From Aeromonas rivipollensis (lineage in GTDB: Bacteria > Pseudomonadota > Gammaproteobacteria > Enterobacterales > Aeromonadaceae): 64,000 nt of DNA. Below the pieces are notes generated by a model that saw only the letters and a program-made list of their open reading frames with translations, ran no database searches and had not been told where the DNA came from. How positions within the stretch are numbered: position 1 is the first letter of the stretch; the number at the start of each line of letters is the position of its first letter. Of this stretch, positions 35,660 to 59,759 are shown in pieces. The DNA lies in NCBI RefSeq assembly GCF_010974825.1, contig NZ_JAAILA010000022.1:1-64000 (forward strand), in the 5' to 3' direction. Made by a program: the position numbers and the translations under genes.

Positions 35660-35788
35660 CCCGCCATCCTCTCGTGCAAGAAATGTCGGGTCAGCCACAA
35701 AAAATCACCGGGACACTCAGGGCCGGATAGTCCAGACCGCGACCGTCCATCAGGGCGTAGCGCTGTTTGTCATGTCGGGTCAGCAACA

Positions 35789-35816
35789 AGAACATCACCG
35801 GGCAAGCCCGGTGATC
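35789..35816 (-). terminator. Terminator copy (block 2) after tail copy B
   Basis: Second identical ATCACCGGGCAAGCCCGGTGAT hairpin with the same flank, 144 bases from the first. Confidence 0.65.
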
Positions 35817-35932
35817 CTTCATGGGATATGTGCGGCGCACTCAGCCCAGCCGCGCGACACTCAGGGCCGGATAGTCCAGACAGCGACCGTCCATCAGGGC
35901 ATAGCGCTGCTTGTAATGTCGGGTCAGCAACA

Positions 35933-35960
35933 AGAACATCACCGGGCAAGCCCGGTGATC
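35933..35960 (-). terminator. Terminator after nirD (block 1)
   Basis: ATCACCGGGC AA GCCCGGTGAT: ten-base arms, 25 bases after the nirD stop. T tract on the minus strand is short (GTTCTTGTT). Confidence 0.7.
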
Positions 35961-35984
35961 CTCAATACGATATACACGACCCGC

Positions 35985-36344
35985 TCAGCCCAATTGCACC
36001 CAGACAGCACCCTCATCCAACCGCACCGGCCAGCAGGCGACACTCAGGGCCGGATCGTCCAGACAGCGGCCGTCCATCAGGGCGTAGCGCTGCTTGTAGA
36101 GGGGGGAGGCGACCACGGGCTCGCCCCCGGCGTCTCCCACCAGGCCGCGCCCCAGCACGGCGACGCCGGCCAGAGGGTCCACCCCGTCCAGGGCATAGAC
36201 CCGCCCCCCGAGGCGAAACAGCGCCAGCACCCGCCCGTCCAGCCAGGCGCTGCGCCCGGCCTGCTCCGGCAGGGCGGACAGCTCGCACACCCTATGCCAC
36301 TGTCCATGCTCGGGGTGCGCTGTGCCTTCCTTGAAATCCTTCAT
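35985..36344 (-). CDS. nirD: Nitrite reductase [NAD(P)H] small subunit
   Basis: 119-residue partner of NirB with a Rieske-like fold. Like other NirD proteins it lacks the CxH...CxxH cluster ligands. HRVCELSALPEQAGRSAW, GGRVYALDGVDPLAGVAVLG and YKQRYALMDGRCLDDPALSV match the family. AAGGAGG precedes the ATG, which overlaps the nirB stop (ATGA). The frame remains open upstream of the ATG through most of nirB, so naive calls of 472 residues are wrong. Its 3' end is duplicated downstream. Confidence 0.93.
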   Translation of the reverse strand: MKDFKEGTAHPEHGQWHRVCELSALPEQAGRSAWLDGRVLALFRLGGRVYALDGVDPLAGVAVLGRGLVGDAGGEPVVASPLYKQRYALMDGRCLDDPALSVACWPVRLDEGAVWVQLG

Positions 36345-38923
36345 ACCACCTCCTTGATACTGATATCCGGCACCCACTGGCCCCGCTCCTCCCGCCGGGG
36401 CGGTGTCTCGTCCTCGGGCCGGTTGACGAAGGCCTCGAACAGCTTGAGCTTGTCCGGATCCGCCAAGGTGCTCCTCCACTCGCACTGCCAGGTACCGACT
36501 ATCCCCTCCATCATGGCCTCCAGCTCGGCCCCTATGCCGAGCCTGTCCTCGATGATCACCGACTTGAGGTAGTCGAGCCCCCCCTCCATGCCCTCCATCC
36601 AGACCGAGGTACGCTGCAGCCGATCCCCGGTGCGCACGTAGAACATCAGCAACCGGTCTATGTAGCGGATCAGGGTCTGCTCGTCGAGGTCGGTGGCAAA
36701 CAGATCGGCGTGACGCGGCCGCATGCCGCCGTTGCCGCAAACATAGAGGTTCCAGCCCCGCTCGGTGGCGATGACGCCTATGTCCTTGCTCTGGGCCTCG
36801 GCGCACTCCCGGGTGCAGCCGGAGACCGCAAACTTCAGCTTGTGGGGGGCCCGCAGCCCCTTGTAGCGGTGCTCCAGGGTCTGGGTCAGGGTCATGGAGT
36901 CCTGCACCCCGTAGCGACACCAGGTGGAGCCGACACAAGACTTCACGGTGCGCACCGACTTGCCGTAGGCCTGGCCAGTCTCGAAGCCCGCCGCCACCAG
37001 CTCGCCCCAGATGGCGGGCAGTTGGTCGACCCGGGCACCGAAGAGATCGATGCGCTGGCCGCCGGTGATCTTGGTGTAGAGGCCGTACTTGCGCGCCACC
37101 TCCCCTATGGTAATGAGCCCGTCCGGGGTGATCTCCCCACCCGGGATGCGCGGCACCACCGAATAGGTGCCGTCCTTTTGCAGGTTGGCGAGGAAGGCGT
37201 CGTTGGTGTCTTGCAAAGCGCGGTGGGGCTTCTCCAGCACGTGCTCGTTCCAGAGGGACGCCAGTATGGAGGCCACCGTCGGCTTGCAGATGTCGCAGCC
37301 AAGGCCCTGGCCGTGCTTGTCCCGCAGCGCCTCGAAGCTCTTCAGCTCGCCGACCCGGGCCAGGTGATAGAGCTCCTGGCGGCTGTAGGCGAAGTGCTCG
37401 CACAGCCCCTTGTCCGCCTCGACCCCGATCTCGCTCAGGGTCTGCTCCACCACCTGCTTGAGCAGGTTGCCGCAGCCGCCGCAGCCGGTGCCCGCCCTGG
37501 TGCAGCTCTTGACCGCCGAAAGCTCGTGGTTGCCCGCCCGAACGGCGGCCACCACCTCCCCCTTGCTGACGTTGTGGCAGGAGCAGAGGATGGCGCTGTC
37601 CGGCAGCACCAGGGGCGCGGGGGCAGCCCCCACCTCCCCCACCAGCAGGGAGAGCGGCGGCTGGGGCAGCGCCACCCCGTTCTGGTAGTACTGCAGCAAC
37701 CGCTCATAATCGGTTCCGTCCCCCACCAGGATGGCGCCGAGCAGCCGGCTCCCCTCACCGTCGGTCACCAGCTTCTTGTAGATGCCCTTGACCCTGTCCA
37801 GCAGCAGCAGCTCCTGGGCCCCGGCGGTGCTGGCGTGGGCGTCGCCGATGGATCCCACATCCACCCCCATCAGCTTGAGCTTGGTGGACATGTCGGCCCC
37901 GACAAAACGGGTCTCGCCGCCGCACAGGCTGGCCACGGCGGCCCGGGCCATCTGGTAGCCGGGGGCCACCAGGCCGAAGATGCGCCCCTGCCAGAGCGCG
38001 CACTCGCCGATGGCGAGGATGGCGGGATCCGAGCTGTGGCAGCCGTCGTCGATGCAGATGCCCCCGCGCTCCCCGACCACCAGCCCGGATTGGCGGGCCA
38101 GGGCGTCGGCGGGGCGGATGCCCGCCGAGAACAGCAGCACGTCGGTCTCAAGATGAGTGCCGTCCTTGAAACGCAGGCGATGGCGAGCCTGCTCCCCCTG
38201 CTCTATGCACTCGGTGGCCTTCTCCACCAGCACCTCGACCCCGAGGGCGCGGATCTTGTCCCGCAGCACGGCGCCGCCACTCTCGTCGAGCTGCACCGGC
38301 ATCAGCCTGGGGGCGAACTCCACCACCTGGGTCTTGAGGCCGAGCAGCCGCAGGGCGTTGGCCGCCTCCAGCCCCAGCAGGCCGCCGCCGATGACCACGC
38401 CGCTACGGGCCTGGGCACAGGCATCGCGGATGGCGGCGAGATCCCCCAGGGTGCGGTAGACGAAGCAGCCCTCCCGCTGGTGGCCGGGGATGGGGGGCAC
38501 GAAGGGCACTGAGCCGGTCGCCAGCACCAGACGGTCGTAAGGGAACTGCTCGCCGTTGGCCAGCGTCAGGGTGCGGGCGGCCCTGTCGAGCACCTCCACC
38601 CCGGCCCCCAGCCGCAGTTCGACCCCCTGCGCCTCATACCAGGCGGGATCCGCCATGCGCAGCGCCTCCGGGGCCTTGCCGCCGAACACCTCGGAGAGGT
38701 GCACCCTGTCGTAGGCGGAGTCCGGCTCGGCCCCGAATACCGTCACCTCGAAGCGCGCCAGCCCGCCGGCCGCCACCAGCTGCTCGATAAAGTGGTGACC
38801 CACCATGCCATTGCCCACCACCAGCAGGCGCTGCTTACCGGCCTTTTCGGGGGATCCGGCGCTCTGGCGATCGTTAAGATCCATGCCGTCGCCTACCACC
38901 CACAGTTGCTCTTTGTCAGCCAT
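36341..38923 (-). CDS. nirB: Nitrite reductase [NAD(P)H] large subunit
   Basis: Cytosolic NADH-dependent reduction of nitrite to ammonium, 860 residues. Order: FAD/NAD domains (LLVVGNGMVGHHFIEQL; VVIGGGLLGLEAANALRLLG), BFD-like [2Fe-2S] segment (CSCHNVSKGEV; CTRAGTGCGGCGN), and the sirohaem/[4Fe-4S] domain (CVGSTWCRYG; CTRECAEAQSKD). Compared with E. coli NirB (847), about 28 residues are added at the front, where LWVVGDGM precedes the genuine LLVVGNGM. The ATG at 38923 has AAGGAAGAG upstream. Cotranscribed with nirD and the nitrate transporter genes. Confidence 0.95.
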   Translation of the reverse strand: MADKEQLWVVGDGMDLNDRQSAGSPEKAGKQRLLVVGNGMVGHHFIEQLVAAGGLARFEVTVFGAEPDSAYDRVHLSEVFGGKAPEALRMADPAWYEAQGVELRLGAGVEVLDRAARTLTLANGEQFPYDRLVLATGSVPFVPPIPGHQREGCFVYRTLGDLAAIRDACAQARSGVVIGGGLLGLEAANALRLLGLKTQVVEFAPRLMPVQLDESGGAVLRDKIRALGVEVLVEKATECIEQGEQARHRLRFKDGTHLETDVLLFSAGIRPADALARQSGLVVGERGGICIDDGCHSSDPAILAIGECALWQGRIFGLVAPGYQMARAAVASLCGGETRFVGADMSTKLKLMGVDVGSIGDAHASTAGAQELLLLDRVKGIYKKLVTDGEGSRLLGAILVGDGTDYERLLQYYQNGVALPQPPLSLLVGEVGAAPAPLVLPDSAILCSCHNVSKGEVVAAVRAGNHELSAVKSCTRAGTGCGGCGNLLKQVVEQTLSEIGVEADKGLCEHFAYSRQELYHLARVGELKSFEALRDKHGQGLGCDICKPTVASILASLWNEHVLEKPHRALQDTNDAFLANLQKDGTYSVVPRIPGGEITPDGLITIGEVARKYGLYTKITGGQRIDLFGARVDQLPAIWGELVAAGFETGQAYGKSVRTVKSCVGSTWCRYGVQDSMTLTQTLEHRYKGLRAPHKLKFAVSGCTRECAEAQSKDIGVIATERGWNLYVCGNGGMRPRHADLFATDLDEQTLIRYIDRLLMFYVRTGDRLQRTSVWMEGMEGGLDYLKSVIIEDRLGIGAELEAMMEGIVGTWQCEWRSTLADPDKLKLFEAFVNRPEDETPPRREERGQWVPDISIKEVV

Positions 38924-38950
38924 ATCTCTCTTCCTTGAATCCGTTGGGGC

Positions 38951-39772
38951 TCAGGCACGCAGCTTGCTGCGCACTTTCTCGGCCGCCTTGAGGGGGGTCA
39001 CCTTGCGCTGCTTCTCGTAGAGGAAGCGCAGCACCTGCTGGCGCAGCTTGTGGTAGTGGGGGTCGTCCGCCAGGGCGACCCTGTCTCTGGGCCTTGGCAG
39101 GTCCACGGTCAGGATCTCCCCGACTGTGGCACTGGGGCCGTTGGTCATCATGCAGATGCGATCGGAGAGCAGCACCGCCTCGTCCACGTCGTGGGTGATC
39201 ATGATGACGGTGTTGCCAAGCTCAGCCTGGATCGCCATCAGGGCATCCTGCAGATGGGCCCGGGTCAGGGCATCGAGGGCGCCGAACGGCTCGTCCATCA
39301 GCAGCACCTTGGGGGAGAGCGACAGCGCCCGGGCTATGCCGACCCGCTGTTTCATGCCCCCCGACAGCTCGTGGGGCATCTTCCGGCTGGCGTGGTCCAT
39401 CTGCACCAGGGAGAGGTAGTAGTCCACCCGCTCCGAAGCCGCCCGCCGGTTCGGCTCAACCTGCCCCACCGCCAGCGCCACGTTCTGCTGGACGCTGAGC
39501 CAGGGCAGCAGGGCGTGGTTCTGGAACACCATGGCCCGCTCGGGCCCTGGGCCCGCCACCTCGCGGCCATCGAGTATGATGCCGCCCAGGGTCGGCTCCA
39601 GCAGCCCGGCCACCAGGTTGAGCACTGTGCTCTTGCCACAGCCCGAGTGACCTATGAGGGAGACGAACTCCCCCTTCTCGATGCGCAGGTTGACCCGGCT
39701 GAGGGCCTCGAAGCTGCCCAGCTCCGTCTCGAACGAGATGCCGACGTCGCTTATCTCCAGATAACTCTTCAT
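38951..39772 (-). CDS. Nitrate/nitrite ABC transporter ATP-binding protein
   Basis: 273-residue single-domain ATPase of the NrtD/NasD type. Walker A GHSGCGKST, signature [15 protein letters not shown], Walker B VLLMDEPFGALD, switch His in MITHDVDEAV. The C-terminus (LRQQVLRFLYEKQRK) is normal for this group and lacks the NrtA-like domain of cyanobacterial NrtC. The start at 39772 has AGGAGA upstream. It energises nitrate uptake with NrtA and NrtB. Confidence 0.93.
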   Translation of the reverse strand: MKSYLEISDVGISFETELGSFEALSRVNLRIEKGEFVSLIGHSGCGKSTVLNLVAGLLEPTLGGIILDGREVAGPGPERAMVFQNHALLPWLSVQQNVALAVGQVEPNRRAASERVDYYLSLVQMDHASRKMPHELSGGMKQRVGIARALSLSPKVLLMDEPFGALDALTRAHLQDALMAIQAELGNTVIMITHDVDEAVLLSDRICMMTNGPSATVGEILTVDLPRPRDRVALADDPHYHKLRQQVLRFLYEKQRKVTPLKAAEKVRSKLRA

Positions 39773-39806
39773 TGGCTCTTCTCCTGCCTGAATATGGAAT
39801 TTGTTG

Positions 39807-40766
39807 TTAACGCAACACCTGGCGCTTGTCCCAGGAGAGCCACTGCTGCAGGGCCAGCATGCCCCTGTCCAGGGCGCAGCCAATGAGGCCTATGGTGATC
39901 ACCGCCACCATGATCCGGGCCAGGGAGGCCGAGCCGCCGCTCTGGAACTCGTCCCACACGAACTTGCCGAGCCCCGGGTTCTGGGCCAGCATCTCGGCCG
40001 CGATCAGCACCATCCAGGCCACCCCGAGCGACAACCGCAACCCGGTGAAGATCATGGGCAGGGCCCCGGGCAGCACTATGCGCCGCACGTGGGTCACAAA
40101 GGAGAGCCGCAGCACCCGGCTTACGTTGTGCAGATCCCTGTCCAGCCCCGCCACCCCCACCGCCGTGTTGATCAGGGTCGGCCAGAGGGAGCAGAGGGTC
40201 ACCGTCAGGGCCGAGGTGAGGAAGGACTTGGCGAGCCAGGGCGCAGGGCTGGCGTAGAGGGCGCTCACCACCAGCGTGATGAGGGGCAGCCAGGCCAGGG
40301 GGGACACCGGCTTGAGCAGCTGGATCACCGGATTGGCGGCGCGATAGAGCCCCTGATTCATGCCGAGCAACACCCCGCACGGGATGGCGATCAGGGTCGC
40401 CAGAGCGAAGCCGCACAACACTGTGAGCAGGCTGGTGGCAATCTGATCGAAGAAGGTGGGACGCCCTGTGTAGGGGCGCAGCTTCACCTCGGCCGCCGGA
40501 TCCTGCGCCAGCCTTGCAGCGTTGCGCACCTGCTGGCGCTCGAGGAAGGCACTCGCCCTCTCCCGCTCGGCCAGGTGATCCTGACCCAGGGACCAGAGCT
40601 GGCTGGCGGTGGCGAGCGGCCCGGGCAGGGTGCCCAGACTGGTCTGCACCTGGCTAGCCCCCCACTGCCAGAGGCCGAGGAAGAGCAGCACGCCCAGCAG
40701 GGGCTGCACCATGACTTTCCAATTGACGGCTTTCCAATGGATGAGTGGCCACTTGTGTCGGTTCAT
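39807..40766 (-). CDS. nrtB: Nitrate ABC transporter permease
   Basis: 319-residue inner-membrane permease of the nitrate/sulfonate/taurine family, six predicted helices. VKPVSPLAWLPL-type loop (LLKPVSPLAWLPLITLV) and the EAA-like LPGALPMIFTGLRLSLGVAW are conserved. I take the ATG at 40766 (MNRHKW), which is six bases from AAGGAG; the ATG at 40784 overlaps nrtA but would place that site inside the gene. Confidence 0.92.
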   Translation of the reverse strand: MNRHKWPLIHWKAVNWKVMVQPLLGVLLFLGLWQWGASQVQTSLGTLPGPLATASQLWSLGQDHLAERERASAFLERQQVRNAARLAQDPAAEVKLRPYTGRPTFFDQIATSLLTVLCGFALATLIAIPCGVLLGMNQGLYRAANPVIQLLKPVSPLAWLPLITLVVSALYASPAPWLAKSFLTSALTVTLCSLWPTLINTAVGVAGLDRDLHNVSRVLRLSFVTHVRRIVLPGALPMIFTGLRLSLGVAWMVLIAAEMLAQNPGLGKFVWDEFQSGGSASLARIMVAVITIGLIGCALDRGMLALQQWLSWDKRQVLR

Positions 40767-40780
40767 TGGGTTCTCCTTGC

Positions 40781-42136
40781 TCATTGCACTCGCTCATCGC
40801 CCTTGAGGCCGATGGCAAACTGATGCAGATAGGCGTTGGGGTGGCGGCCGTCGTAGAGCAGGCCGTCGATGAAGCCATCCTGGGGGCCGCGATAGCCCTG
40901 CTCGCTGGCAAAATCCGGGAAGTCGGTGGCCTTGAGTTTGCCCTCGGCGATCAGCGCCTCGGCGGCCTGGCGATAGACGCCCGGCTGGTAGACGGCCTTG
41001 GCCACCTGCTCGAACCAGGCGTCCGGCTTGGCCTCGGGGATCTGGCCCCAGCGCCGCATCTGGGTCAGATACCAGATGGCGTCCGAGTAGTAGGGGTAGG
41101 TGGCGTGGTGGCGGAAGAAGACGTTGAAGTCCGGCAGCTGACGCTTGTCCCCCTTGGCGTACTCGAAGGTGCCGGTCATTGAGTTCGCAATCACCTGCTC
41201 GTCGGCCCCCACGTACTCCGGCCTTGCCAGCAGCTTGGCCGCCTCGCGCCTGTTGCCGTTCTGCTCCGCATCCAGCCACCAGGCCGCCCGCAGCAGCGCC
41301 TTCACCAGCCGGACATGGGTGTTGGGATGGCGCTCTGCCCACTGCCGGGTGACGCCGAACACCTTCTCCGGGTTGTTGCGCCAGATCTCAAGGTCCGTGA
41401 TAACGGGCACCCCTATGCCTCTGGCGACCGCCTGCTGGTTCCAGGGCTCCCCCACGCTGTAGCCGGCTATGGTGCCCGCCTCCAGGGTGGCGGGCATCTG
41501 GGGCGGCGGCGTCACCGAGAGCAGCACGTCAGCCTGACGCTGGCCCGAGTTGTCGCCAAGCTTGGGCGCGTAGAAGCCGGGGTGCAGGCCGCCCGCCGCC
41601 AGCCAGTACCTGAGCTCGTAGTTGTGGGGGGATACGGGGAACACCATCCCCATGTTGAAGGGCTTGCCCCCCTGGCGGTACTCGGCCACCACGGGTTTGA
41701 GGGTCGCGGCGCTCACAGGGGGCGGCACCTGGCCCGCCTTCGCCTTGGGCAGCTGGGGCGCCATGGCGGCCCAGACGCTGTTCGCCACCGTGATGGCGTT
41801 GCCGTTGAGATCCATGGCAAAAGCCGTCACCAGCTCGGCCTGGGTGCCAATGCCGATGTGGGCCGCCAGGGGTTGGCCCGCCAGCATCTGGGCGCCGTCC
41901 AGCTCGCCGTCTATCACCCGATCCAGCAAGATCTTCCAGTTCGCCTGGGCTTCCAGGGTCACGTAGAGCCCCTCGTCCTCGAAATAACCGCGCTCATAGG
42001 CCACCGCCAGCGGCGCCATGTCGGTCAGCTTGATGAAGCCGAGCCTCAGCTCCTCCTGCTCCGGAGCCCCCAGCGCCAGTACCGGCAGCGACAGCGTCGC
42101 CAGCAGCAAGCCCGTACATCCTTGTCTCTTGTTCAT
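40781..42136 (-). CDS. nrtA: Nitrate-binding protein of ABC transporter
   Basis: 451-residue periplasmic receptor for nitrate/nitrite. A Sec-type signal (MNKRQGCTGLLLATLSLPVLALG) precedes LRLGFIKLTDMAPLAVAYERGYF, the typical mature start. MGMVFPVSPHNYELRYWLAAGG, GYSVGEPWNQQAV and FFRHHATYPYYSDAIWYLTQMRRW are hallmarks of NrtA/NasS. There is no separate NasS in this window, so NrtA may be only the transport receptor or may share a sensing role; the signal peptide argues for transport. First gene after a leader with an attenuator. Confidence 0.94.
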   Translation of the reverse strand: MNKRQGCTGLLLATLSLPVLALGAPEQEELRLGFIKLTDMAPLAVAYERGYFEDEGLYVTLEAQANWKILLDRVIDGELDGAQMLAGQPLAAHIGIGTQAELVTAFAMDLNGNAITVANSVWAAMAPQLPKAKAGQVPPPVSAATLKPVVAEYRQGGKPFNMGMVFPVSPHNYELRYWLAAGGLHPGFYAPKLGDNSGQRQADVLLSVTPPPQMPATLEAGTIAGYSVGEPWNQQAVARGIGVPVITDLEIWRNNPEKVFGVTRQWAERHPNTHVRLVKALLRAAWWLDAEQNGNRREAAKLLARPEYVGADEQVIANSMTGTFEYAKGDKRQLPDFNVFFRHHATYPYYSDAIWYLTQMRRWGQIPEAKPDAWFEQVAKAVYQPGVYRQAAEALIAEGKLKATDFPDFASEQGYRGPQDGFIDGLLYDGRHPNAYLHQFAIGLKGDERVQ

Positions 42137-42202
42137 TCGCCTTCCTCGCTCACATCACAGTCATGGGCAGCCGTTCCCCTGCGCCGTTGCAGAGTTGCGA
42201 CC

Positions 42203-42282
42203 AAAAAAAAACCTCACCGATCCGGGATCGGTGAGGCCTCTTTGCCCTGTTGCGAGTGACGGGCCCATGGGCACCATCACTC
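42203..42282 (-). ncRNA. ANTAR-type antitermination leader before nrtA
   Basis: In transcript order: hairpin P1 with arms GAGTGA / TCACTC (42254-42282); a six-base linker; hairpin P2, GGGC-AAAGAG-GCCT (42234-42247), whose hexaloop AAAGAG has A at position 1 and G at position 4 as ANTAR proteins require; then a terminator with 11-base arms CCTCACCGATC / GATCGGTGAGG (42212-42236) and nine T residues. The 3' arm of P2 shares bases 42234-42236 with the terminator stem, so the two cannot form together. An ANTAR protein holding P2 would allow readthrough into nrtABC-nirBD. Confidence 0.75.
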
Positions 42283-42297
42283 CTTGTATGTTGACTA

Positions 42298-42315
42298 ATT
42301 CACTTTCCGTGCCAA
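42298..42315 (-). promoter_or_regulatory. Sigma-54-like promoter of nrtA-nirD
   Basis: Minus strand TTGGCACG GAAA GTGAA. The -24 element is perfect. The -12 element has GA where GC is expected. Predicted transcription start is near 42288, which puts the whole P1-P2-terminator array at the 5' end of the RNA. Confidence 0.5.
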
Positions 42316-42425
42316 ATTGGCTAATCCATAGAAACTGGCCCTATCCCGCCTCTTTCCTCCCTGTTTCTCCCCTCGTTTGCCTCAATTAGGCGCAATTGCA
42401 CCAAAACGGTTTGCCAGCGGGGCGC

Positions 42426-43007: not shown

Positions 43008-43079
43008 GGCGCTCCTTGCCAACGGCTATCGCAACGTGTCTGCTGAACATGCCGCAACATGAAGGCCAACTATTTGAAT

Positions 43080-43108
43080 CTACCTCCTTTTTATCTATCC
43101 AGAGGTAG
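43080..43108. repeat. Inverted repeat between cobA and nasT
   Basis: CTACCTC (43080-43086) and GAGGTAG (43102-43108), 15-base loop, in the 125-base gap upstream of nasT. It lacks an AxxGxx hexaloop and a T tract, so it is neither an ANTAR hairpin nor a terminator. Confidence 0.45.
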
Positions 43109-43132
43109 TGGGGGTAGAGGGGAAACCCCGGC

Positions 43133-50880: not shown

Positions 50881-50911
50881 AACGTCATCCTTTTTCTCTT
50901 TCATAGGTGTC

Positions 50912-50968
50912 GCTCATAGCAGCACCATGTCGTCTCTGTGGATGGCCCATGATCCCATAGCCGTAGCC
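50912..50968 (-). repeat. Extra proB tail between proB and proA
   Basis: The last coding bases of proB (50997-51054) recur 85 bases downstream at 50912-50968. The first 32 bases (50912-50943 against 50997-51028) differ at two positions, and a further CCATAGCCGTA block matches after a short diverged part. On the minus strand the copy still ends IHRDDMVLL-stop. Confidence 0.85.
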
Positions 50969-50998
50969 GTAGCGGCAGGGTTTATCGGGGCCGACTGC

Positions 50999-52102
50999 TC
51001 ACAGCAGCACCATATCGTCTCTGTGGATAGCAACGGCGCCATAGCCGTAACCCAGCACGGCCTCTATCTGATCCGAGTGTAGGCCCCGCAGCTTCTCAAG
51101 CTCCAGATGATCGTAACGGCAGATGCCGCGGGCCAGCTCGCTCCCCTGAGGGCCCAGGATCCGCACCACGTCGCCACGGACGAAGTCTCCCTTGACCGCG
51201 ACTATGCCCTTGGGCAGCAGGCTGGAGCCCTTCTCCTGCATGGCGGCCACGGCCCCCTGATCCACCTGGACTTCCCCATGGGGGGGCGGCCCTGCCAGGA
51301 TCCAGCTCTTGCGCCCTTCCAGCGGCGAGGCCAGGGCCGGGAACAGGGTCCCCACCCGCTCGCCGGCGGCGAGGCGACCTATCACTTCCGGGATCTGGCC
51401 AGTGGCGATCACCACATTGACCCCGGCGCGGCGTGCCACGTCGGCGGCCTGCAGCTTGGTGGCCATGCCGCCGGTCCCGAGGCCGCTGACGCTGTCACCA
51501 GCGAGGGATCGCAGGGTGTCGTCTATGGTCTGCACCTCTTCGATGAGCTGGGCATCCGGGTTGGTGCGGGGATCCGCGGTAAAGAGCCCCTTCTGATCGG
51601 TGAGCAGGATCAGCAGATCCGCATCGGCCAGGATGGCGGCGCGGGCGGAGAGGTTGTCGTTGTCCCCCACCTTGATCTCGGCGGTGGCCACGGCGTCGTT
51701 CTCGTTGATGACGGGGATGATGCGGTGATCGAGCAGGGTGCGCAGGGTGTCGCGGGCATTGAGGTAACGCTCCCTGTCCTCCAGATCGGCGCGGGTCAGC
51801 AACATCTGGCCGATGTGCAGCCCGTAGAGGTTGAACAGGTCCTGCCATACCCGGATGAGCTGGGTCTGGCCCACCGCCGCCAGCATCTGCTTGTTGGGCA
51901 GGGTCGGCGCCAGCGGAGGGTGCCCCAGGTGCTCACGTCCGGCGGCAATGGCGCCGGAGGTCACCAGAACGACACGGTGTCCGTGTCGATGCAGGGCGGC
52001 ACATTGCCTGACCAGCTCCACCATGTGGGCACGGTTGAGACGGGCAGATCCCCCGGTGAGCACGCTGGTGCCCAATTTGACGACTATGGTTCTGTTTTCC
52101 AT
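50999..52102 (-). CDS. proB: Glutamate 5-kinase
   Basis: First, feedback-inhibited step of proline synthesis. It has 367 residues (E. coli 367), an amino-acid kinase domain ([50 protein letters not shown]) followed by a C-terminal PUA domain (about residues 275-367). The 3' end is partly repeated downstream. Confidence 0.96.
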
Positions 52103-52234
52103 GGGAACAAAGGGTTAGAAAAGTAAGGAATCCCTTTATACCCACGGCCCTGTTACCCTGCAAGGCAATTAAGCCTCACAGCTGTCATGGCAAAGAAGGA
52201 GGCCCTGCGGATATGACCGCAGGGCCCGGGCGGA

Positions 52235-52627: not shown

Positions 52628-52689
52628 GCTAACCTCCCTGTTGAACAAGCCATACCATCACATGATGATGTTACATTTTTAGTTCTATA

Positions 52690-53958
52690 TCATGTACATA
52701 AGTGCTTTTTTAGCCAATCTACCGTCTCTTTGAGCGCCTCGTCATACACCTCCAGCAGAGGCTGTTTGTCGAACACCACCGCCTTGCCATTGCGGCTGGC
52801 GGAGGCCAGGGCCCGGACATCCTGCTCGGGACAAATGAAGTCACGCTTGTGGCCAATGCTCAGGATGGGCACAGAGGTGCGGCTCCCCAGCAACCCCTGG
52901 GTCTTGAGGGAGAAGACCTGGCACTTGGTGCGCAGCAGATCCCACTGGGCGGCATCGGCCCCCAGGCGGTTCGCCAGCCCGTCTCGCATCATGCGCGGAC
53001 AGCGGGCAAACATCTCCTGATTGGTAAACACCTGATTGATGCCGGCCCCGATGCAGACCACAGTCCTGAGCTTGAAGGGCTCGATGAAGGCGAGGCGCGC
53101 CGCCACATTGCCGGCGAGGCGGAACCCCACCATGGCGATGCGCTGATGATCGACCCAGGCCACCTCGGAGAGGTGGTTGAGCACCGCCTGGTGCAGGCGA
53201 CTGGTGTCCTGCACCAGGGGCCAGTGCTCCGCATAGCCGGTTCCCGGCATGTCCAGCGATAGCATGCCGATGCCGTGGGGCTCGAGGCACTTGAAGTAGA
53301 AGTTGAGGAAGTCGACCTGGAGGGCGTCTATGCCACCGCTGACGATGACCAGGGGCACAGGCCTGTCGGTGGTGGGCAGGTGCAGATAGCCTTGAATGGT
53401 CTTGCCCCGGAACGGGACCTGCAGCTCCTTGAGGGGCACCTTGAACAACCTGCCTGCCTCGCGGTAGGCCATGTTGCAGAGCAACTGGGCCTGATCTGCC
53501 AGCTCGTCATTCTTGAGGTGGGGATAGCTCGCGATGGAGTAGTAGCGCACCGCCTTGAGCAGATTCTTCAACGCCCCGGCACTGTCGCCCTGGCTGACCA
53601 GCTCGCGCCCGGCATTGAAATAGCGGCCAGCCAGCTGGCTCCACTCATAGACCCAGTTGCCGGGCACATAACCTTTGATGGTATCCAGATAGCGCTCGTG
53701 GCTGCGCTCTCCCTGACCCATGGCGATGCGGGCAAGAGTCTGCTCCACTTCCACCGGATCCGCACCCTGCCAGGCCCAGGTCGGCCGGCGCAGCAGGCGG
53801 TACCAATGGGGCGACAGGGCGCCGTCGATGAAGCTCTCGGCCAGGGAGCTGTCCTGCTCATCGACCGGGCTGGAGTTGGATATTTCGGAGGTTTCCAATA
53901 CCTGTTTGACCCGGGTGAACAGCTTTTCCGTCAGGTTGGTATCGTCGTTTGGTTCCAA
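52690..53958 (-). CDS. frsA: Alpha/beta hydrolase-like protein FrsA
   Basis: 422-residue protein of the FrsA/YafA family, known as a partner of the unphosphorylated PTS protein IIA-Glc and debated as a hydrolase. The N-terminal 120 residues are a helical cap; then the alpha/beta core with VIVSGGIDALQVDF and MLSLDMPGTGYAEHW. At the nucleophile elbow GFRLAGN replaces GxSxG, as in E. coli FrsA, so normal esterase chemistry is unlikely. Confidence 0.92.
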   Translation of the reverse strand: MEPNDDTNLTEKLFTRVKQVLETSEISNSSPVDEQDSSLAESFIDGALSPHWYRLLRRPTWAWQGADPVEVEQTLARIAMGQGERSHERYLDTIKGYVPGNWVYEWSQLAGRYFNAGRELVSQGDSAGALKNLLKAVRYYSIASYPHLKNDELADQAQLLCNMAYREAGRLFKVPLKELQVPFRGKTIQGYLHLPTTDRPVPLVIVSGGIDALQVDFLNFYFKCLEPHGIGMLSLDMPGTGYAEHWPLVQDTSRLHQAVLNHLSEVAWVDHQRIAMVGFRLAGNVAARLAFIEPFKLRTVVCIGAGINQVFTNQEMFARCPRMMRDGLANRLGADAAQWDLLRTKCQVFSLKTQGLLGSRTSVPILSIGHKRDFICPEQDVRALASASRNGKAVVFDKQPLLEVYDEALKETVDWLKKHLCT

Positions 53959-54131
53959 GATGGTGACTCTTCTGTCTCAAACAATGGTCCATCTTAACCA
54001 CTTTTCACCGCGGGCAGCCACATCATAAACGCATAAGGCCCCAAACAGGGGCCCTATGAAACCATCTTGCCATCAGCGCGAGCAAACCTCCCCCACCAAA
54101 GTCAGGGGCGGGGCGCCAAGGCTGGGGGCGA

Positions 54132-54599
54132 TTACTCTTCGTCGCAGATCGGGTTGGCAAACTCCAGCGCCATGTCCCAGGGCTGCTCAATCCAGGTGTC
54201 CTGCGGGATGGCGACCTCGAAGTCATCCAGCAATTGCTCACCCATGGGCTTGGCGAAGATGGCGATGAACTTGGCCTTGGGATAGAGCTCGCGGATCGCC
54301 TTGGCGGTAGTTCCTGTGTCCACCAGATCTTCCACTACCAGCCAGCCTTCACCGTCACCGGCTGTGGTGGCGGCCTTGACGACCACCAGCTCACGCTGGC
54401 TGTTGTGGTCATAGCTGGAGATGCAGAGGGTTTCGACGTTGCGAATGCCAAGTTCACGGGCCATCAGGGCAGCAGGCACCAGGCCACCACGGCTGACCGC
54501 GATGATCCCTTTCCACTGGCTGACGGGCAGTTGACGACGGGCCAGACGGCGCGCTTCACGTTGCAGGTTATCCCACGATACATAGAACTTTTTTGGCAT
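54132..54599 (-). CDS. gpt: Xanthine-guanine phosphoribosyltransferase
   Basis: Purine salvage enzyme joining PRPP with guanine, xanthine or hypoxanthine; 155 residues (E. coli 152). The PRPP loop [15 protein letters not shown] and [14 protein letters not shown] are typical of the family, and [19 protein letters not shown] is the E. coli-like start. Upstream of frsA in the same orientation. Confidence 0.95.
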
Positions 54600-54974
54600 G
54601 CTATCGATCTCAACGAGTTATAAAGGCAATCACTAAGACGTAAGGGTCCCGGCAGACACACGGGATCCGGTAAATTCTGGCCCCCGTTTCCTGAATTTTG
54701 CTTGCACTTTTGCGGCCTCAGGAATGAACCCTCGGCAGCAAAAAGCAGATGCATTGAAAGCAGGACGGGCATGGCTGGCGGCCATCTCGATCTAGACCCA
54801 GACCTCAGGCCAGCTGTTGGGCCGGTATGATAGCACCCTTTGCAGATAAAATGACTGGCAAACGTATGCGAAAAACAGGAAAAGTCGGCCATCTCCTGCC
54901 CGTTTGGCCTCCCCTCGGGGCCCAGTCCTCATCAACAGGGTGCTCATTCGAAGAGCAAACCTCGAATTTCGGGT
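54600..54974. other. Intergenic region upstream of gpt
   Basis: About 375 bases, presumably the gpt promoter on its left side. Several open frames here lack coding character. I see no operator or repeat I can support. Confidence 0.4.
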
Positions 54975-55016
54975 AAAAAAATAGCAGGGGGAGGATGGAA
55001 CCCTCACACACCTGCT
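54975..55016 (-). terminator. Terminator after the 29-residue gene
   Basis: AGCAGG (54983-54988) and CCTGCT (55011-55016) arms with inner GGG/CCC pairing, followed on the minus strand by ATTTTTTT. Confidence 0.75.
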
Positions 55017-55056
55017 GCTTTTCTGCTTTCTCTGTCAGCCTGGCTGACTGCCCGTC

Positions 55057-55146
55057 TTAACGACGACCGGCGTAGGGGTTCGGATAGTTGAAACCCTGGG
55101 TATAGAGAGACTGGGCAAACCAATAGGTTGAATTGCTGCCTGACAT
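55057..55146 (-). CDS. Small protein of 29 residues, unrecognised
   Basis: ATG at 55146 with AGGAG seven bases upstream, 29 codons, TAA stop. The peptide begins MSGSNSTYWFAQSLYTQGF and ends NYPNPYAGRR; it is rich in aromatic residues (W, F, Y) and Asn/Ser, without a membrane segment. It has its own terminator and a leader with CsrA-type motifs, which argues that it is a real transcription unit. I do not recognise a family. It could also be the coding part of a dual-function RNA. Confidence 0.5.
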   Translation of the reverse strand: MSGSNSTYWFAQSLYTQGFNYPNPYAGRR

Positions 55147-55190
55147 AATGAACTCCTGATTGCTTAACAAGTTACGTACCTTTAATGCGG

Positions 55191-55206
55191 GTTCAGATCC
55201 TTGAAC
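55191..55206 (-). promoter_or_regulatory. CsrA-type hairpin in the leader of the 29-residue gene
   Basis: On the minus strand GUUCA-AGGAUC-UGAAC: a five-base stem showing GGA in a hexaloop. UUCAAGGAUCU matches nine of eleven positions of the CsrA consensus RUACARGGAUGU region. It lies 45 bases upstream of the start codon. Two more ANGGA motifs (AGGGA, ACGGA) are farther up. Confidence 0.55.
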
Positions 55207-55212
55207 AGACAC

Positions 55213-55258
55213 TCGGTTCCGTGGAGGCGCACTTGCTTTGCTTCGGTTCCCTGGAGGC
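55213..55258 (-). repeat. Direct repeat with ANGGA motifs
   Basis: Minus strand GCCTCCAGGGAACCGA (55258-55243) and GCCTCCACGGAACCGA (55228-55213): 15 of 16 identical, 30 bases apart. Each contains an ANGGA motif of the kind bound by CsrA. Confidence 0.7.
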
Positions 55259-55536
55259 ATTCATTGTCGTCCTGACAAGTGGTTGACCCACGGCGGCTAA
55301 TTTACCACCCGGCGGCGAAAAGACAATATTTTTGTGATATGCGTCACGAATTTCATCTTCTGCTGGTAACCATGGGCAAGGCAGTCATGTTCGCCATTCA
55401 GGCTCCCTTTATCAGCACAAGCAGACCGCAATTTGCGCAGATCGCTCACATTTTTGTGTGATTGACTGTATTATCGTTACCCTCTTCTGCGGCCCACTGG
55501 GCCCTGTCCATTTCCGTGCTGGTAAGGAGTCCCGAC

Positions 55537-56988
55537 GTGGCACAGCTTAGTTCTCTGTCTCCCAAGTTGATTTGGCAATTCTTCGAGCAGATCTGCTCCA
55601 TTCCCCACCCCTCCAAGCACGAGGCCAAATTGAGCGCCTGGATAGTGCAGTGGGCCCAGGGGGAAGGCCTGGCGGTCAAACAAGACGCCGTGGGCAACAT
55701 CATCATCAAGAAGCCGGCCACCCCGGGCATGGAAAACCGCAAGGCCGTGGTGCTGCAGGCCCACATCGACATGGTGCCCCAGGCCAATGCCGACACCCGG
55801 CACGACTTCACCCAGGATCCCATCGATGCCTACATCGACGGTGAATGGGTCACCGCCCGTGGCACCACCCTGGGAGCCGACAACGGCATGGGCATGGCAG
55901 GCTGTCTGGCCGTGCTGGCCGACAAGACCATCAAGCACGGCCCGCTGGAAGTGCTGCTGACCACGGACGAAGAGACCGGCATGACAGGCGCCTTCGGCCT
56001 GGAAGCGGGCTGGCTGGAGGGCGAGATCCTGCTCAACACCGACTCCGAAGAGGATGGCGAAGTCTACATGGGCTGCGCCGGCGGGGTGGATGCCAATATC
56101 CGCTTCCCGCTGGAGCAGGTTGTCGCCACCCAGGGTGAAGGTTTCGAGCTGCAGGTGAAGGGGCTGCGTGGCGGTCACTCCGGGGTCGACATCCACCGCG
56201 GTCGTGGCAACGCCAACAAGCTGCTGGTGCGCCTGCTCAAGGCCGCCGAGCCGCTGGGGGTGCGTCTGGCCGAGATAAGCGGCGGTACCCTGCGCAACGC
56301 CATCCCCCGCGAAGCCCGCGCCACCCTGCTGGTGCCCACCGCCAGCGTCAGCGAGTTCAAAGCCCTGGTTGACCGCTACGCCGGCATCTATCAGAGCGAG
56401 CTGGCAGCCACCGAAGCCAACCTGACAGTGCTGCTCACCGCTCAGGAAAAACCGGCCAAGCTGATGAGCGAATCCCTCCAGACCCGCCTGCTGGACGCCC
56501 TGATGGCCTGCCCCAACGGCGTCATCCGCATGAGCGATGCCATCCCGGGCGTCACCGAGACCTCCACCAACCTCGGCGTCATCAAGACCCTCGAGGGTGA
56601 GGTCTATGTGCAGTGCCTGATCCGCTCCCTCATCGACTCGGGTCGCGAGAGCGTCGAGCAGATGACCCGTTCCCTGTTCAGCCTGGCGGGCGCCAGCTGT
56701 GAATTCACCGGTGCCTACCCTGGCTGGGCACCGAACGTGGACTCCCCCGTGATGGCGCTGGTACGCAACAGCTACCAGACCCTGTTCGGCGAGATGCCGA
56801 ACGTCATGGTGATCCACGCCGGTCTCGAGTGCGGTCTGTTCAAGAGCGCCTACCCGGATTGGGACATGGTCTCCTTCGGCCCGACCATTCGCGGTGCCCA
56901 CTCACCGGACGAGAGGGTTCATATCCCGGCGGTCGAACGCTTCTGGCAGCTGCTGGTCCACGTGCTGGAACAGATCCCGGCCAAGTAA
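55537..56988 (+). CDS. pepD: Cytosol non-specific dipeptidase (aminoacyl-histidine dipeptidase)
   Basis: Zinc M20-family dipeptidase that cleaves Xaa-His and other dipeptides; 483 residues (E. coli 485). Metal ligands are in VVLQAHIDMVPQ, TTLGADNGMGMA and TTDEETGMTGAFG; GLRGGHSGVDIHRGRGNANKLL is the lid region, and IHAGLECGLF holds a C-terminal site. I start at a GTG at 55537 (VAQLSSLSPKLIWQF), with AAGGAG ten bases upstream and a perfect fit to E. coli MSELSQLSP; the open frame to 55462 is not family-like. Confidence 0.94.
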   Translation: MAQLSSLSPKLIWQFFEQICSIPHPSKHEAKLSAWIVQWAQGEGLAVKQDAVGNIIIKKPATPGMENRKAVVLQAHIDMVPQANADTRHDFTQDPIDAYIDGEWVTARGTTLGADNGMGMAGCLAVLADKTIKHGPLEVLLTTDEETGMTGAFGLEAGWLEGEILLNTDSEEDGEVYMGCAGGVDANIRFPLEQVVATQGEGFELQVKGLRGGHSGVDIHRGRGNANKLLVRLLKAAEPLGVRLAEISGGTLRNAIPREARATLLVPTASVSEFKALVDRYAGIYQSELAATEANLTVLLTAQEKPAKLMSESLQTRLLDALMACPNGVIRMSDAIPGVTETSTNLGVIKTLEGEVYVQCLIRSLIDSGRESVEQMTRSLFSLAGASCEFTGAYPGWAPNVDSPVMALVRNSYQTLFGEMPNVMVIHAGLECGLFKSAYPDWDMVSFGPTIRGAHSPDERVHIPAVERFWQLLVHVLEQIPAK

Positions 56989-57172
56989 GCACGGGCCTCC
57001 CGAGCCACTCCATGCCCCGCCCAGTGCGGGGCATGTCATTGGGGCTGTGCCCCTCCTTTCTCTGCGTTGACCCCTTCACTGCCCCTGCCGATCCCCCTTG
57101 AAATCGTATCCATAAGCAACCCTGGATTTGAAAACCTTTTCCATGATTTATGTAAATTTACAACACAATAAG

Positions 57173-57186
57173 TTGATCGAGATCAC
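57173..57186 (+). promoter_or_regulatory. FNR-like box upstream of the 39-residue gene
   Basis: TTGAT-CGAG-ATCAC: nine of ten consensus bases. The same bases also form a weaker CRP match (GTTGA-N6-TCACA). Its centre is 78 bases before the start codon. Confidence 0.55.
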
Positions 57187-57206
57187 AAAAGCCTCTAGCA
57201 TCAAAT

Positions 57207-57222
57207 TGTGACCAAGGTCACA
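57207..57222 (+). promoter_or_regulatory. Consensus CRP site upstream of the 39-residue gene
   Basis: TGTGA-CCAAGG-TCACA, perfect in both half-sites and flanked by A/T on the left (AAAT), 43 bases (centre) before the start codon. Confidence 0.7.
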
Positions 57223-57257
57223 GGAAACAATAATCAACAGAGCGAAGAGGTAAGACT

Positions 57258-57377
57258 ATGTTTGAGAACCTGGCAGTGCTGTTCCACCTGAAGGGTGCAT
57301 CCAGCAAGAAAGGCACACAAGAGAAAGACACTTATGCGCCTTCGACTCGCAACTACTACTTCCGCTATGGCGCCTGA
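57258..57377 (+). CDS. Small protein of 39 residues, unrecognised
   Basis: ATG at 57258, with AGAGG about ten bases upstream, then 39 codons and TGA. The peptide begins MFENLAVLFHLKGASSKKGT and ends APSTRNYYFRYGA. The N-terminal 11 residues are hydrophobic with no clear cleavage site; the middle is charged and the C-terminus aromatic. A CRP site and an FNR-like box upstream and a strong terminator downstream support a real, regulated transcript. I do not recognise the family. Too short for routine gene finders. Confidence 0.55.
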   Translation: MFENLAVLFHLKGASSKKGTQEKDTYAPSTRNYYFRYGA

Positions 57378-57518
57378 TGTCGCCCGCCCGGAAGTAGAAA
57401 TTAGTAACGTAATAAAACTACAAAATAACTCAGCAATTCACACCACAGCCACCCCCTCGGGGCGCTGTCCTGCCCGGGCCAGATGTTCCACGGCCAAACC
57501 TGAACTCCAACCATGAAG

Positions 57519-57544
57519 ATGGGGCCCACAGGCCCCATTTTTTT
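57519..57544. terminator. Terminator between the 39-residue gene and oppF
   Basis: ATGGGGCC, CACA, GGCCCCAT followed by a T run; convergent position. Confidence 0.88.
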
Positions 57545-57604
57545 ATTGCTCGTCCCCGACGCCACCTTGCTGCGATACCGGCCCTGGCGAAGCGGATGCC
57601 GGCA

Positions 57605-58606
57605 TCAGACCGCCTTTCCCAGCGGCGCCGCCTCCACCACGGACAAGGGGAAGTGGCAGGCCACCTGATGGGCCTCTGTGCCACAGGGCTCCAGACTCGG
57701 CGAGGTGCCTCGGCACAACTCTGTGGCATAGGGGCAGCGCTGATGGAAATGGCAGCCGCTCGGCGGCGAGATGGGTGAGGGGACGTCCCCGGTCAGCAGG
57801 ATGCGCTGGTTGCGCCTGCGGGGATCCGGCACCGGGATCGCCGAGATGAGCGCCTGGGTATAGGGGTGGCGCGGGCTCAGGTAGAGTTGCTGGGCCTCGG
57901 CCAGCTCGACGATCCTTCCCAAGTACATGACCGCAATCCTGTCCGAGATGTGTTTGACCACAGAGAGATCGTGGGCGATGAAGATGATGGCCAGATTCAT
58001 CTCCCGCTGCAGGGTGAGCAGCAGGTTCACTATCTGGGACTGCACCGAGACGTCCAGCGCCGACACCGCCTCGTCGCACACCAGCAGTTTGGGCTTGAGG
58101 GCGATGGCGCGGGCTATGCCGATGCGCTGGCGCTGGCCGCCGGAAAACTCGTGAGGATAGCGATCCACCGCACTCTTGGGCAGTCCCACCTTGTCCAGCA
58201 GCTCCAGCACCCAGCCGCGTCGTTGCGCTGTGCTGCCTTTACCGTGGATGATGAAGGGCTCTTCCAGGATCTGGCCCACTGTGTGGCGACCGTTGAGGGA
58301 TTCTGCAGGATCCTGAAAGACTATCTGCATCTCCTGGCGCAGGGATCGCATCTCCCCGGGTGACAACCGGGTGATGTCGCGCCCCTCGAAGCTTATCTGC
58401 CCCGCCGTGGGTTCAAACAGCTTGAGCAGGGAGCGCCCCAGGGTGGACTTGCCGCAGCCGGACTCCCCCACCAGCCCCAGCGTCTCCCCCTGCTTGAGAT
58501 CGAAGCTGATGCCATCCACCGCATAGACGGTGTAGGGCTTGCGCAAAAAGCCGCCACCCATCTTGAAGTGCTGCTTCAAGTCTCTGACCGACAACAAGGT
58601 GCTCAT
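57605..58606 (-). CDS. Peptide ABC transporter ATP-binding protein, OppF/DppF-like
   Basis: 333-residue ATPase. Walker [12 protein letters not shown], signature FSGGQRQRIGIARAI, Walker B LLVCDEAVSALD, switch His in FIAHDLSVVKH, and the C-terminal oligopeptide-transporter cysteines (CHFHQRCPYATELC). It would pair with the OppD-like protein to power the Yej/Opp-type permease. The start at 58606 has CAGGAG upstream and overlaps the stop of a 33-codon mini-ORF (CGATGAGC). Confidence 0.93.
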   Translation of the reverse strand: MSTLLSVRDLKQHFKMGGGFLRKPYTVYAVDGISFDLKQGETLGLVGESGCGKSTLGRSLLKLFEPTAGQISFEGRDITRLSPGEMRSLRQEMQIVFQDPAESLNGRHTVGQILEEPFIIHGKGSTAQRRGWVLELLDKVGLPKSAVDRYPHEFSGGQRQRIGIARAIALKPKLLVCDEAVSALDVSVQSQIVNLLLTLQREMNLAIIFIAHDLSVVKHISDRIAVMYLGRIVELAEAQQLYLSPRHPYTQALISAIPVPDPRRRNQRILLTGDVPSPISPPSGCHFHQRCPYATELCRGTSPSLEPCGTEAHQVACHFPLSVVEAAPLGKAV

Positions 58607-58704
58607 CGCCGCCGCTCCTGTCCATCCAGGTAAAGAGCCGACATAGCCCCTTCCCGATTGCTGAGGTGCTGCTTCAACTCCCGTACCGACAACAAGATGC
58701 TCAT
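58603..58704 (-). pseudogene. 33-codon mini-ORF: spare copy of the oppF start
   Basis: Begins at 58704 (overlapping the oppD stop, ATATGAGC), with AAGGAG upstream, and reads [19 protein letters not shown], against MSTLLSVRDLKQHFKMGGG of the real oppF. After about 13 codons the similarity ends; it closes with a TGA overlapping the oppF ATG. It keeps start, ribosome binding site and coupling, so it is probably translated, but as a fragment of a duplicated gene start rather than a functional enzyme. Confidence 0.8.
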
Positions 58705-59759
58705 ATGCTCAACTCCTTCCAGTGGTGGCAGGCCACAGCGTGGCGCTCGCTCAGCTGCTCTGTCACCGGTATGGTGCCCACGCAGATCTCGGTGGCGTGG
58801 GGACAACGGTTGGAGAAGCGGCAGCCCGCCGGCATCTCGTGCAGGGCGGGCACCTGGCCCTTGATGGTCTTGAGCAGGCTCTTGGGCACGTCTTCGAGGC
58901 GCGGGATCGAGGCCATCAGACCATGAGTATAGGGATGGCGCGGGTGGTCAAACAGCTCGAAGATGTCGGCCCGCTCCACGGCGCGGCCCGCATACATCAC
59001 CACTACCTCGTCGCACAGCTCCGCCACCACCCCGAGATCGTGGGTGATGAAGATGATGGCCATGCCGGTCTGGGCCTGCAGCGCCTTCATCAGATCCAGG
59101 ATCTGGGCCTGGATGGTGACATCCAGCGCAGTGGTCGGCTCGTCGCAGATGAGCAGATCCGGCTCGCAGGCAAGCGCCATGGCGATCATCACCCGCTGGC
59201 GCATGCCGCCGGAAAGGTTGTGGGGGTAGACGGCGAAGCGCTGGGCCGGCTCCGGGATCCCCACCTTCTGCAGCATGGCGATGGCGGCCTCCTTGCGCTG
59301 CGCCTTGCTGAAATCAGGCCTGTGCAGGCTGAACACCTCCATCAGCTGAGTCCCGACCGTCTGCACCGGATTGAGCGCCGTCATCGGCTCCTGGAAGATC
59401 ATGGAGATGCGGTTGCCGCGCACCTTGTACATCTGATCCGGCGGCAGCGACAGCAGTTCCTCCCCCTGAAAGCGGATGGATCCCGCCACCACCTGACCGT
59501 GGGGCCTGGGCAGTAGCCCCATGATGGCCAGCGAGGTGACGCTCTTGCCGCAGCCGGATTCACCGACGATACCTAGGGTCTGGCCCGGGGCGACCTGGAA
59601 GCTGACCCCGTCGAGCACCTTGATCTTGCCGTCGTCGACCGCGAACTCCACCTCGAGATCCCGCACCTCCAGGATGGGGGCCCTGCCCTGACCGTTATCA
59701 GCGGTGAACTGCCCCCCATTGTCTCGGACGTCGAGGATGGGGGCTTGTGTCTCTGTCAT
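58701..59759 (-). CDS. Peptide ABC transporter ATP-binding protein, OppD/DppD-like
   Basis: 352-residue ATPase. Walker [12 protein letters not shown], signature [15 protein letters not shown], Walker [13 protein letters not shown], switch His in [12 protein letters not shown]-terminal [14 protein letters not shown]. The start at 59759 has GGGGAGG upstream. The first 47 residues contain a doubled segment: [21 protein letters not shown] then [21 protein letters not shown]; the second unit is the normal family start. Thirteen bases separate it from the binding-protein gene. Confidence 0.92.
59619..59744 (-). repeat. In-frame 63-base duplication at the oppD start
   Basis: Codons 6-26 (59744-59682) and codons 27-47 (59681-59619) are a diverged tandem pair, each beginning GCCCCCATCCT. 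Shared residues: A-P-I-L-(D/E)-V-R-D, F, D, G at the same positions. Confidence 0.75.

Follow-up and report, generated by a model that had tools for sequence, protein, structure and literature searches.

Copied gene ends in the Aeromonas rivipollensis window

Short, diverged copies of gene ends lie beside their parent genes in a stretch of 64,000 nucleotides (nt) of Aeromonas rivipollensis DNA (contig NZ_JAAILA010000022.1, positions 1 to 64,000; hereafter the window). A sequence-only reading of this DNA had reported that nirD, proB, oppF and oppD, and tentatively nirB, carry partial copies of their own termini. The whole window was scanned for local direct repeats (ungapped, distance 15-400, score at least 22, overlapping hits merged). 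Three survived, all at gene ends: the nirD tail (35709-35848 and a copy 144 nt away), the proB tail (50912-50946 with 50997-51031) and the oppF head (58564-58619 with 58662-58717), where tail denotes the 3' end of a gene and head its 5' end. The scan thus recovered three of the five cases. Head repeats of oppD and nirB, the two weaker cases, were sub-threshold when the scan was limited to the window; judged by anchor spacing, relatives carry 0-5 and 0-2 extra in-frame units at these two genes, so that all five genes have copied ends. Weaker pairs of 18-35 nt under the scan threshold were mostly gene-internal. The copies were diverged, as had been stated. The span of 30-65 bases first given for them describes the stretch that is still alike and not the unit, the real units being 85, 98, 144, about 63 and about 78 nt. 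The products of nirB, nirD, proB and proA reach curated NCBIfam cut-offs. Relatives' loci were taken from 37 Aeromonas-genus genomes, among which G000 is the genome of the window and G023 belongs to the same species and is a single contig of 4.55 Mb. All genes and copy units of the window described in this and the following section are on the minus strand.

The nirD gene (35985-36344; NCBIfam TIGR02378, above cut-off) has its copied tail at 36037-36098. The first copy, with its own stop codon, lies between two terminator hairpins (35853-35992, tail 35854-35915) and repeat comparison gave 95% identity to the parent tail over 62 nt. The second (35709-35848, tail 35710-35771) includes the second terminator hairpin, is followed by half of a third terminator, and matches the unit before it at 89% over 140 nt with a period of 144. 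The description of these elements as two copies of the 3' end therefore holds for the tail but is incomplete for the unit, which also includes the terminator. No nirD tail copy was present in the 12 other anchored loci with the same next gene, G023 included, and the gap there measured 127-135 nt versus 360 in the window. The first two terminators (within 35680-35960) have the common tail GTTCTTGTTGCTGACCCGACAT, a sequence that did not turn up in any of the 12 further anchored loci, and the 28 nt directly before the terminators are far more different than the terminators themselves. This mosaic suggests conversion between units. The N-terminus of nirB contains an in-frame tandem unit of about 78 nt (38750-38923, repeat starts near 38905 and 38827), located by the spacing in relatives. 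Spacing could be read in 16 of 17 nirB loci, the remaining locus being without a second anchor; four had no extra unit of about 78-81 nt, nine had one and three had two.

The proB tail copy is an 85-nt unit upstream of proA (50914-50998; 91% identity over 35 nt) that starts directly after the stop codon of proB (50999-52102; NCBIfam TIGR01027), grows more alike toward its end and closes at its own stop. A pattern search found it in 10 of 30 genus loci, one of which (G019) has three tails. At this junction (window 50911-51010, and loci L002-L031), the stop codon sits in the loop of a hairpin of 9-11 base pairs (bp), at the end of proB in two single-copy species that were folded and at the end of the copy in three other species folded; at L016 both arms carry matched changes, GGTAC/GTACC for GGTGC/GCACC. 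The G018 assembly is broken at the proB-proA junction (contigs C9 and C26), and an inserted element or an extended array may lie concealed there.

The oppD-oppF junction and the copied starts

Both in-frame and out-of-frame copies of gene starts occur at oppD-oppF. The N-terminus of oppD (58701-59759; best NCBIfam hit OppD, under the curated cut-off) contains an in-frame tandem unit of about 63 nt next to the native unit (59619-59744), again located by relatives' spacing. By anchor spacing, 30 oppD loci carried no extra unit of this size (6 loci), one (20), two (3) or five (1, G014). The head of oppF (57605-58606; reaching only the NCBIfam cut-off of a dipeptide ATP-binding subfamily) is copied from 58564-58606, with 79% identity over 56 nt and a unit of 98 nt. 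The copy, which the sequence-only reading had called a separate mini-ORF, opens a complete mini open reading frame (mini-ORF) of 33 codons (58603-58704), with an ATGA overlap both with the oppD stop and with the true oppF start.

The oppF head copy was present in 10 of 30 oppD-oppF loci and absent in 20. Every one of the 10 copy-bearing genomes has an unbroken mini-ORF with an ATGA overlap on either side, at spacings of 95, 98 or 104, and in each of them the oppD frame reaches into the first ATGA after 82 open codons. In G023 two such mini-ORFs, 98 nt each, stand in series, while G000 has one. Over the first 42 nt, identity between copy and parent ranged from 52 to 93% across genomes. As it falls to 52% with all 10 frames still open, the frame is kept although the sequence drifts. 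Frames of 33 open codons are frequent in DNA so rich in G+C, occurring in 62-84% of shifted windows, and the weight therefore rests on the position of the frame and its stop.

Copied starts in Aeromonas nearly always followed this arrangement. Of 15 local repeats with a unit covering a gene start, 14 opened a mini-ORF that stops no more than 7 nt from the true start, compared with 26% of simulated cases (P = 8e-8), and eight of the 15 stopped exactly as ATGA (simulated 15%, P = 5e-4). The simulation comprised 3881 duplications over real gene starts, after removal of 1251 in-frame extensions. When pncB, found in two species, was counted once, 13 of 14 loci agreed (P = 3e-7). At overlapping gene pairs the mini-ORF can fuse the head of the downstream gene to the tail of the upstream gene, as seen by eye at one pair in G036 and one in G010; these pairs look like trpE-trpG and etfB-etfA, respectively, these names and that of pncB being assigned from the look of the sequence. 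At oppD and nirB translation stays unbroken by a different route, the copied unit being in frame.

Two published reports describe coupled translation where a stop codon overlaps a start codon (PMC6728339, PMC10666635). A stop that overlaps or nearly touches the next start, as termination-reinitiation needs, was found at 14 of the 15 copied starts and in 10 of the 10 oppF copies. Judged from this arrangement, translation of the downstream gene may depend on translation of the mini-ORF.

Frequency of copied ends within and outside the genus

We compared the terminal 100 nt of every gene, at either end, with 300 nt of flanking DNA, using internal segments and shuffled sequences as controls and gene calls from a home-made caller. 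The Aeromonas sample of 1.26 Mb consisted of the window and 400 kb each of G023, G036 and G010. Most of its stretches were evenly spaced, the exceptions being the window, as the source of the finding, and L167, chosen for its nir region. The comparison genomes were G061 from the same family and G045 and G050 from the same order.

Tail copies were found at 31 of 999 genes in Aeromonas (window 2/53, G023 10/307, G036 5/309, G010 14/330) and head copies at 15 of 953 (window 1/52, G023 4/296, G036 3/299, G010 7/306). Internal segments were copied once in 968 and shuffled sequences never, so that gene ends were strongly favoured over internal segments (46/1952 versus 1/968, P = 1.6e-7); this was the comparison that the sequence-only reading had proposed, and internal copies were not as frequent as terminal ones. 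In the comparison genomes the counts were 2/983 tails, 0/950 heads and 0/908 internal segments. Aeromonas thus exceeded the comparison genomes for both tails (Fisher P = 1.1e-7) and heads (P = 5.8e-5), and continued to do so without the window and L167 (tails 27/929, P = 4e-7; heads 14/885, P = 3.5e-5). The Aeromonas samples share some orthologous duplications, such as pncB in G023 and G010, and these counts are to that extent not fully independent.

When repeats were classified independently of this test, without gaps, Aeromonas had 32 tails and 10 heads in 1.2 Mb. An equal length of the comparison genomes had 2 tails and 0 heads, three 'edge' rows and one 'spanhead' row being omitted, whereas repeats inside genes numbered 27 versus 18. 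Extrapolation gives about 160 gene-end copies per Aeromonas genome. A further 35 kb of A. caviae contained three repeats, all at gene ends.

The same-family genome G061 has an ordinary diverged tail copy (L247:10881-11025), and G050 has a near-exact tail duplication of 373 bp (L261:3366-4115). Such copies are therefore not unique to Aeromonas.

Chance was rejected as a source of the copies, as the shuffled controls gave no hits. Assembly error was likewise rejected, since the single-contig genomes G010, G023 and G036 have copies; in agreement with the earlier view that the copies are no assembly artefact, the closed same-species genome G023 has two serial oppF head copies.

Placement, edges and periods

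The repeats are adjacent, direct tandem units, mostly of 45-180 bp, with a constant period, and they span a gene boundary; in the three 400-kb Aeromonas samples the periods of tails and heads ran from 45 to 178. Arrays of three or four units were found at nirD, at rnfD in G024, and at L199, L209 and L285. The copies are about 0-100 nt apart in the junctions that were read, and the sequence between them is mostly diverged parent sequence. All 45 gene-internal repeats have a period divisible by three; 28 tail units without a head part show no such rule (remainder 0, 1 or 2 in 9, 12 and 7 cases, respectively). Because only in-frame duplications leave a gene intact when they lie wholly within it, a bias toward gene ends over interiors is expected from selection alone.

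Inspection of two recent arrays gave GACA (L199) and CCGG (L197) as candidate microhomologies, the other junctions being too diverged. No shared motif was noticed in the post-stop junction sequences, which were judged by eye and not with a motif program. Two simple arrays were also seen: a run of the heptamer AAGGCTG at a gene end in G023, between the gene and its tail copy (L167:18440-18500), and an intergenic array of the octamer TGATTGGC in G036 (L197:11589-11670).

Decay, polymorphism and polarity

Differences between 33 tails and their copies numbered 76, 71 and 124 at codon positions 1, 2 and 3, or 46% at the third position; for heads they numbered 27, 28 and 48, or 47%. Among the differences between functional proB tails of different species, 78% fall at third positions, and neutral DNA would give 33%. 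Tail copies thus decay mostly as neutral DNA, and most of the divergence seems to postdate the copying, as the third-position share is 46% versus 78% between functional tails. Pooled over the 33 tails, the two copies do not differ in the manner of functional alleles. Some single loci do fit that pattern, with differences at third positions only at proB (0/0/3) and L167 (0/0/5).

Strains of the same species differ in their copies. Between G000 and G023, the nirD copies occur only in G000, the rnfD copy only in G023, and the oppF copy is single in the one and double in the other. Among ten genomes read at rnfD, the copy was present in G023, G022, G025, G033 and G024, the last with four tails, and absent from G000, G019, G012, G010 and G036.

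Divergence along the homologous coding parts is polar, and the polarity is mirrored at the two ends of genes. Of 30 tails, 19 were more alike in the 3' half and 10 in the 5' half (P = 0.018); of 11 heads, 9 were more alike in the 5' half and none in the 3' half (P = 0.004). Unrestricted counts (tails 29/33, heads 11/11) were set aside, being inflated by non-homologous linker. The mirrored polarity would fit recombination with single-copy alleles entering from the outside flank, and other causes would fit as well. Recombination among strains has been published for the A. veronii group (PMC3040217).

Origin of the copies

We think it probable, with some reserve, that the copies are short tandem duplications for which translation acted as the filter and which allelic recombination has preserved in recognisable form. 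An ordinary illegitimate duplication would straddle a gene boundary and would survive where no gene's translation is stopped. If it fell across a stop codon, the gene would be left whole beside a useless, decaying copy of its tail. Across a start and in frame, it would yield an N-terminal repeat, as in oppD and nirB; across a start and out of frame, it would yield a mini-ORF that ends on or directly against the true start, where the ribosome may terminate and re-initiate, as proposed for oppF and most others. Copies are gained and lost between strains, and recombination with single-copy alleles probably refreshes their outer end, the 3' end of tails and the 5' end of heads, such that old copies stay recognisable. 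Of source, filter and preserver, the translation filter is the only part that is well demonstrated.

Several observations weigh against this explanation. Purely intergenic pairs numbered 9 raw against 42 at gene ends (9/51), where random placement of the observed unit sizes among gene-sparing duplications would give a share of about 45% (P = 3e-5); apart from selection against broken genes, placement was thus not random. By eye, several of the nine turn out to be arrays of tRNA genes, a microsatellite or tail arrays that had gone unrecognised. Part of the deficit can be put down to intergenic pairs decaying faster. The comparison genomes, with two tails versus five intergenic pairs (three of them simple heptamer or hexamer arrays), have no such deficit, although these numbers are small. 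Of 33 tail copies, 20 began no more than 20 nt from the stop of the parent, a position for which geometry predicts 35% (P = 0.0025). One of the 15 copied starts breaks the rule, its mini-ORF ending 42 nt before the true start. The rnfD copies differ at only two of 49 nt, oppF copies match their own parent slightly better than other parents (P = 0.01, which we count as weak to moderate), and the proB copy tracks its own parent weakly (permutation P = 0.08). Finally, nothing that was found accounts for the near absence of copies in the three comparison genomes. The sequence-only reading had doubted simple slippage because it should not favour gene ends so strongly. That argument loses its force for interiors, where scarcity is expected from duplication plus selection, and retains it for two things that selection alone leaves unexplained, the scarcity of intergenic pairs and the difference from the comparison genomes. 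Because of the edge excess near the stop codon, the few intergenic pairs and this contrast, there is room for a process directed to gene edges. Such a duplication process, preferring the edges of reading frames in Aeromonas, where coding similarity, ribosomes or transcripts end, and turning start copies into coupled chimeric mini-ORFs, is a tentative proposal that we hold to be possible but rather doubtful. If true, it would keep supplying the genus with new small proteins, overlapping genes and N-terminal extensions.

Recombination with incoming alleles had been suggested as the maker of the copies. As homology-edge recombination, DNA from another strain or species would pair with a conserved gene up to the end of coding similarity and the joint would be resolved slightly upstream, which would leave donor and resident gene ends side by side. 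Similarity frequently ends at the stop codon, and the bias of pairs to gene ends over purely intergenic positions would follow. At rnfD in G023, moreover, the outer copy matches the tails of G000 and G019 at 47 of 49 positions and the inner tail at 45, and by eye the inner linker is laid out as in G022 and G025; copies differing at third positions only, at proB and L167, agree as well. Against these stand the pooled third-position share of 46% where about 78% would be expected, linkers that look by eye like diverged parent sequence and not foreign intergenic DNA, and linker features of proB and rnfD that are common across species and thus point to old duplications. The suggestion accordingly survives in part, as presence or absence within the species and polar divergence are signs of allelic recombination, and is not supported as an account of how copies are made, for which we regard it as rather unlikely. 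A mutational process tied to the ends of transcription or translation (for example R-loops, or forks stalled where ribosomes leave the message) and unusually active in Aeromonas would explain why edges near the stop codon exceed the geometric prediction, why intergenic-only pairs are rare and why the three comparison genomes differ. The edge excess is modest (20/33), however, edges lie 50-95 nt out at nirD and others, and no motif or enzyme was found, although no program search for either was made; we consider this process improbable.

Selection of the copies as regulatory elements, such as RNA hairpins or decoys beside genes, would be in keeping with the proB stop lying in a hairpin loop both in single-copy species and in the copy, with the paired changes there in one species, and with the oppF mini-ORF remaining an ORF in 10 of 10 bearers. 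Tail copies nevertheless decay almost neutrally, copies are missing in close relatives, and no sequence or structure common across genes was noticed by eye, all of which make this reading decidedly improbable. Attachment sites of genomic islands typically copy the 3' ends of genes, and the copies might accordingly be remnants of integrating elements that use gene ends. We hold this to be very improbable, given tandem units of variable copy number (four rnfD tails in G024, five extra oppD units in G014), copies at gene starts too, and the small distance between copies at the junctions that were read, although no search for integrases was made.

Relation to known systems

The 178-bp repeats distal to E. 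coli tyrT (RtT RNA, an Rfam family) are a precedent at a single locus. As in Aeromonas, they are tandem units downstream of a gene and carry a copy of its own 3' end; they differ in belonging to one tRNA locus, whereas the Aeromonas copies concern many protein genes, at both ends, within one genus. No Rfam family matched the window at the gathering threshold.

For the copied starts the nearest likeness is termination-reinitiation at ATGA or TGATG. Like the junctions reported for it (PMC6728339, PMC10666635), most Aeromonas mini-ORFs overlap the true start or end within 7 nt of it. The reported overlaps join two functional genes, whereas here the upstream partner is a copied head of the downstream gene, sometimes fused to the tail of the upstream gene. 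A 410-bp duplication in hmgA of Vibrio anguillarum, of the slippage or illegitimate recombination type, is similarly a direct copy of a short segment (PMC6787238). In contrast to the Aeromonas copies, which lie on gene boundaries, are often old, recur and are concentrated in Aeromonas among the genomes compared, it breaks the gene. Tandem repeats of Borg elements, some of them within proteins, arise independently and fast and make new disordered protein regions (PMC9879509). Borgs are extrachromosomal archaeal elements, however, and the accessible part of that report mentions neither a gene-end rule nor a mini-ORF relay.

In the open literature searched, which excludes most subscription papers and was mostly available only as excerpts, neither gene-end copies in Aeromonas nor mini-ORFs made from head copies were found described. 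The parts of this system are of known kinds; its abundance and the translation rule appear to be new. The copies may give a direct view of the birth of overlapping genes, leader mini-ORFs and N-terminal extensions, and they offer natural variants for testing the reach of a termination-reinitiation relay, with one or two serial mini-ORFs at oppF. They are also a warning that copied gene ends make up some of the small ORFs predicted in Aeromonas and some of its intergenic stretches. Should a specific cause underlie the enrichment, it would bring to light a bias in mutation or recombination that has so far gone unrecognised.

Additional observations

An A. caviae record in a plasmid collection matches the window proB at 89%. 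The A. caviae record NZ_AP026896.1 (L301), a 4.94-Mb circle named pKAM479_3, contains both proB and the nir region and looks like a chromosome filed as a plasmid. Its annotation is limited to 18 features, none of which falls in the stretch used here, so that it offered no independent gene calls. Within the window, Tandem Repeats Finder reported two small tandem arrays in one ORF, with periods of 18 and 15 (11113-11154 and 11574-11604), both below the threshold of the direct-repeat scan.

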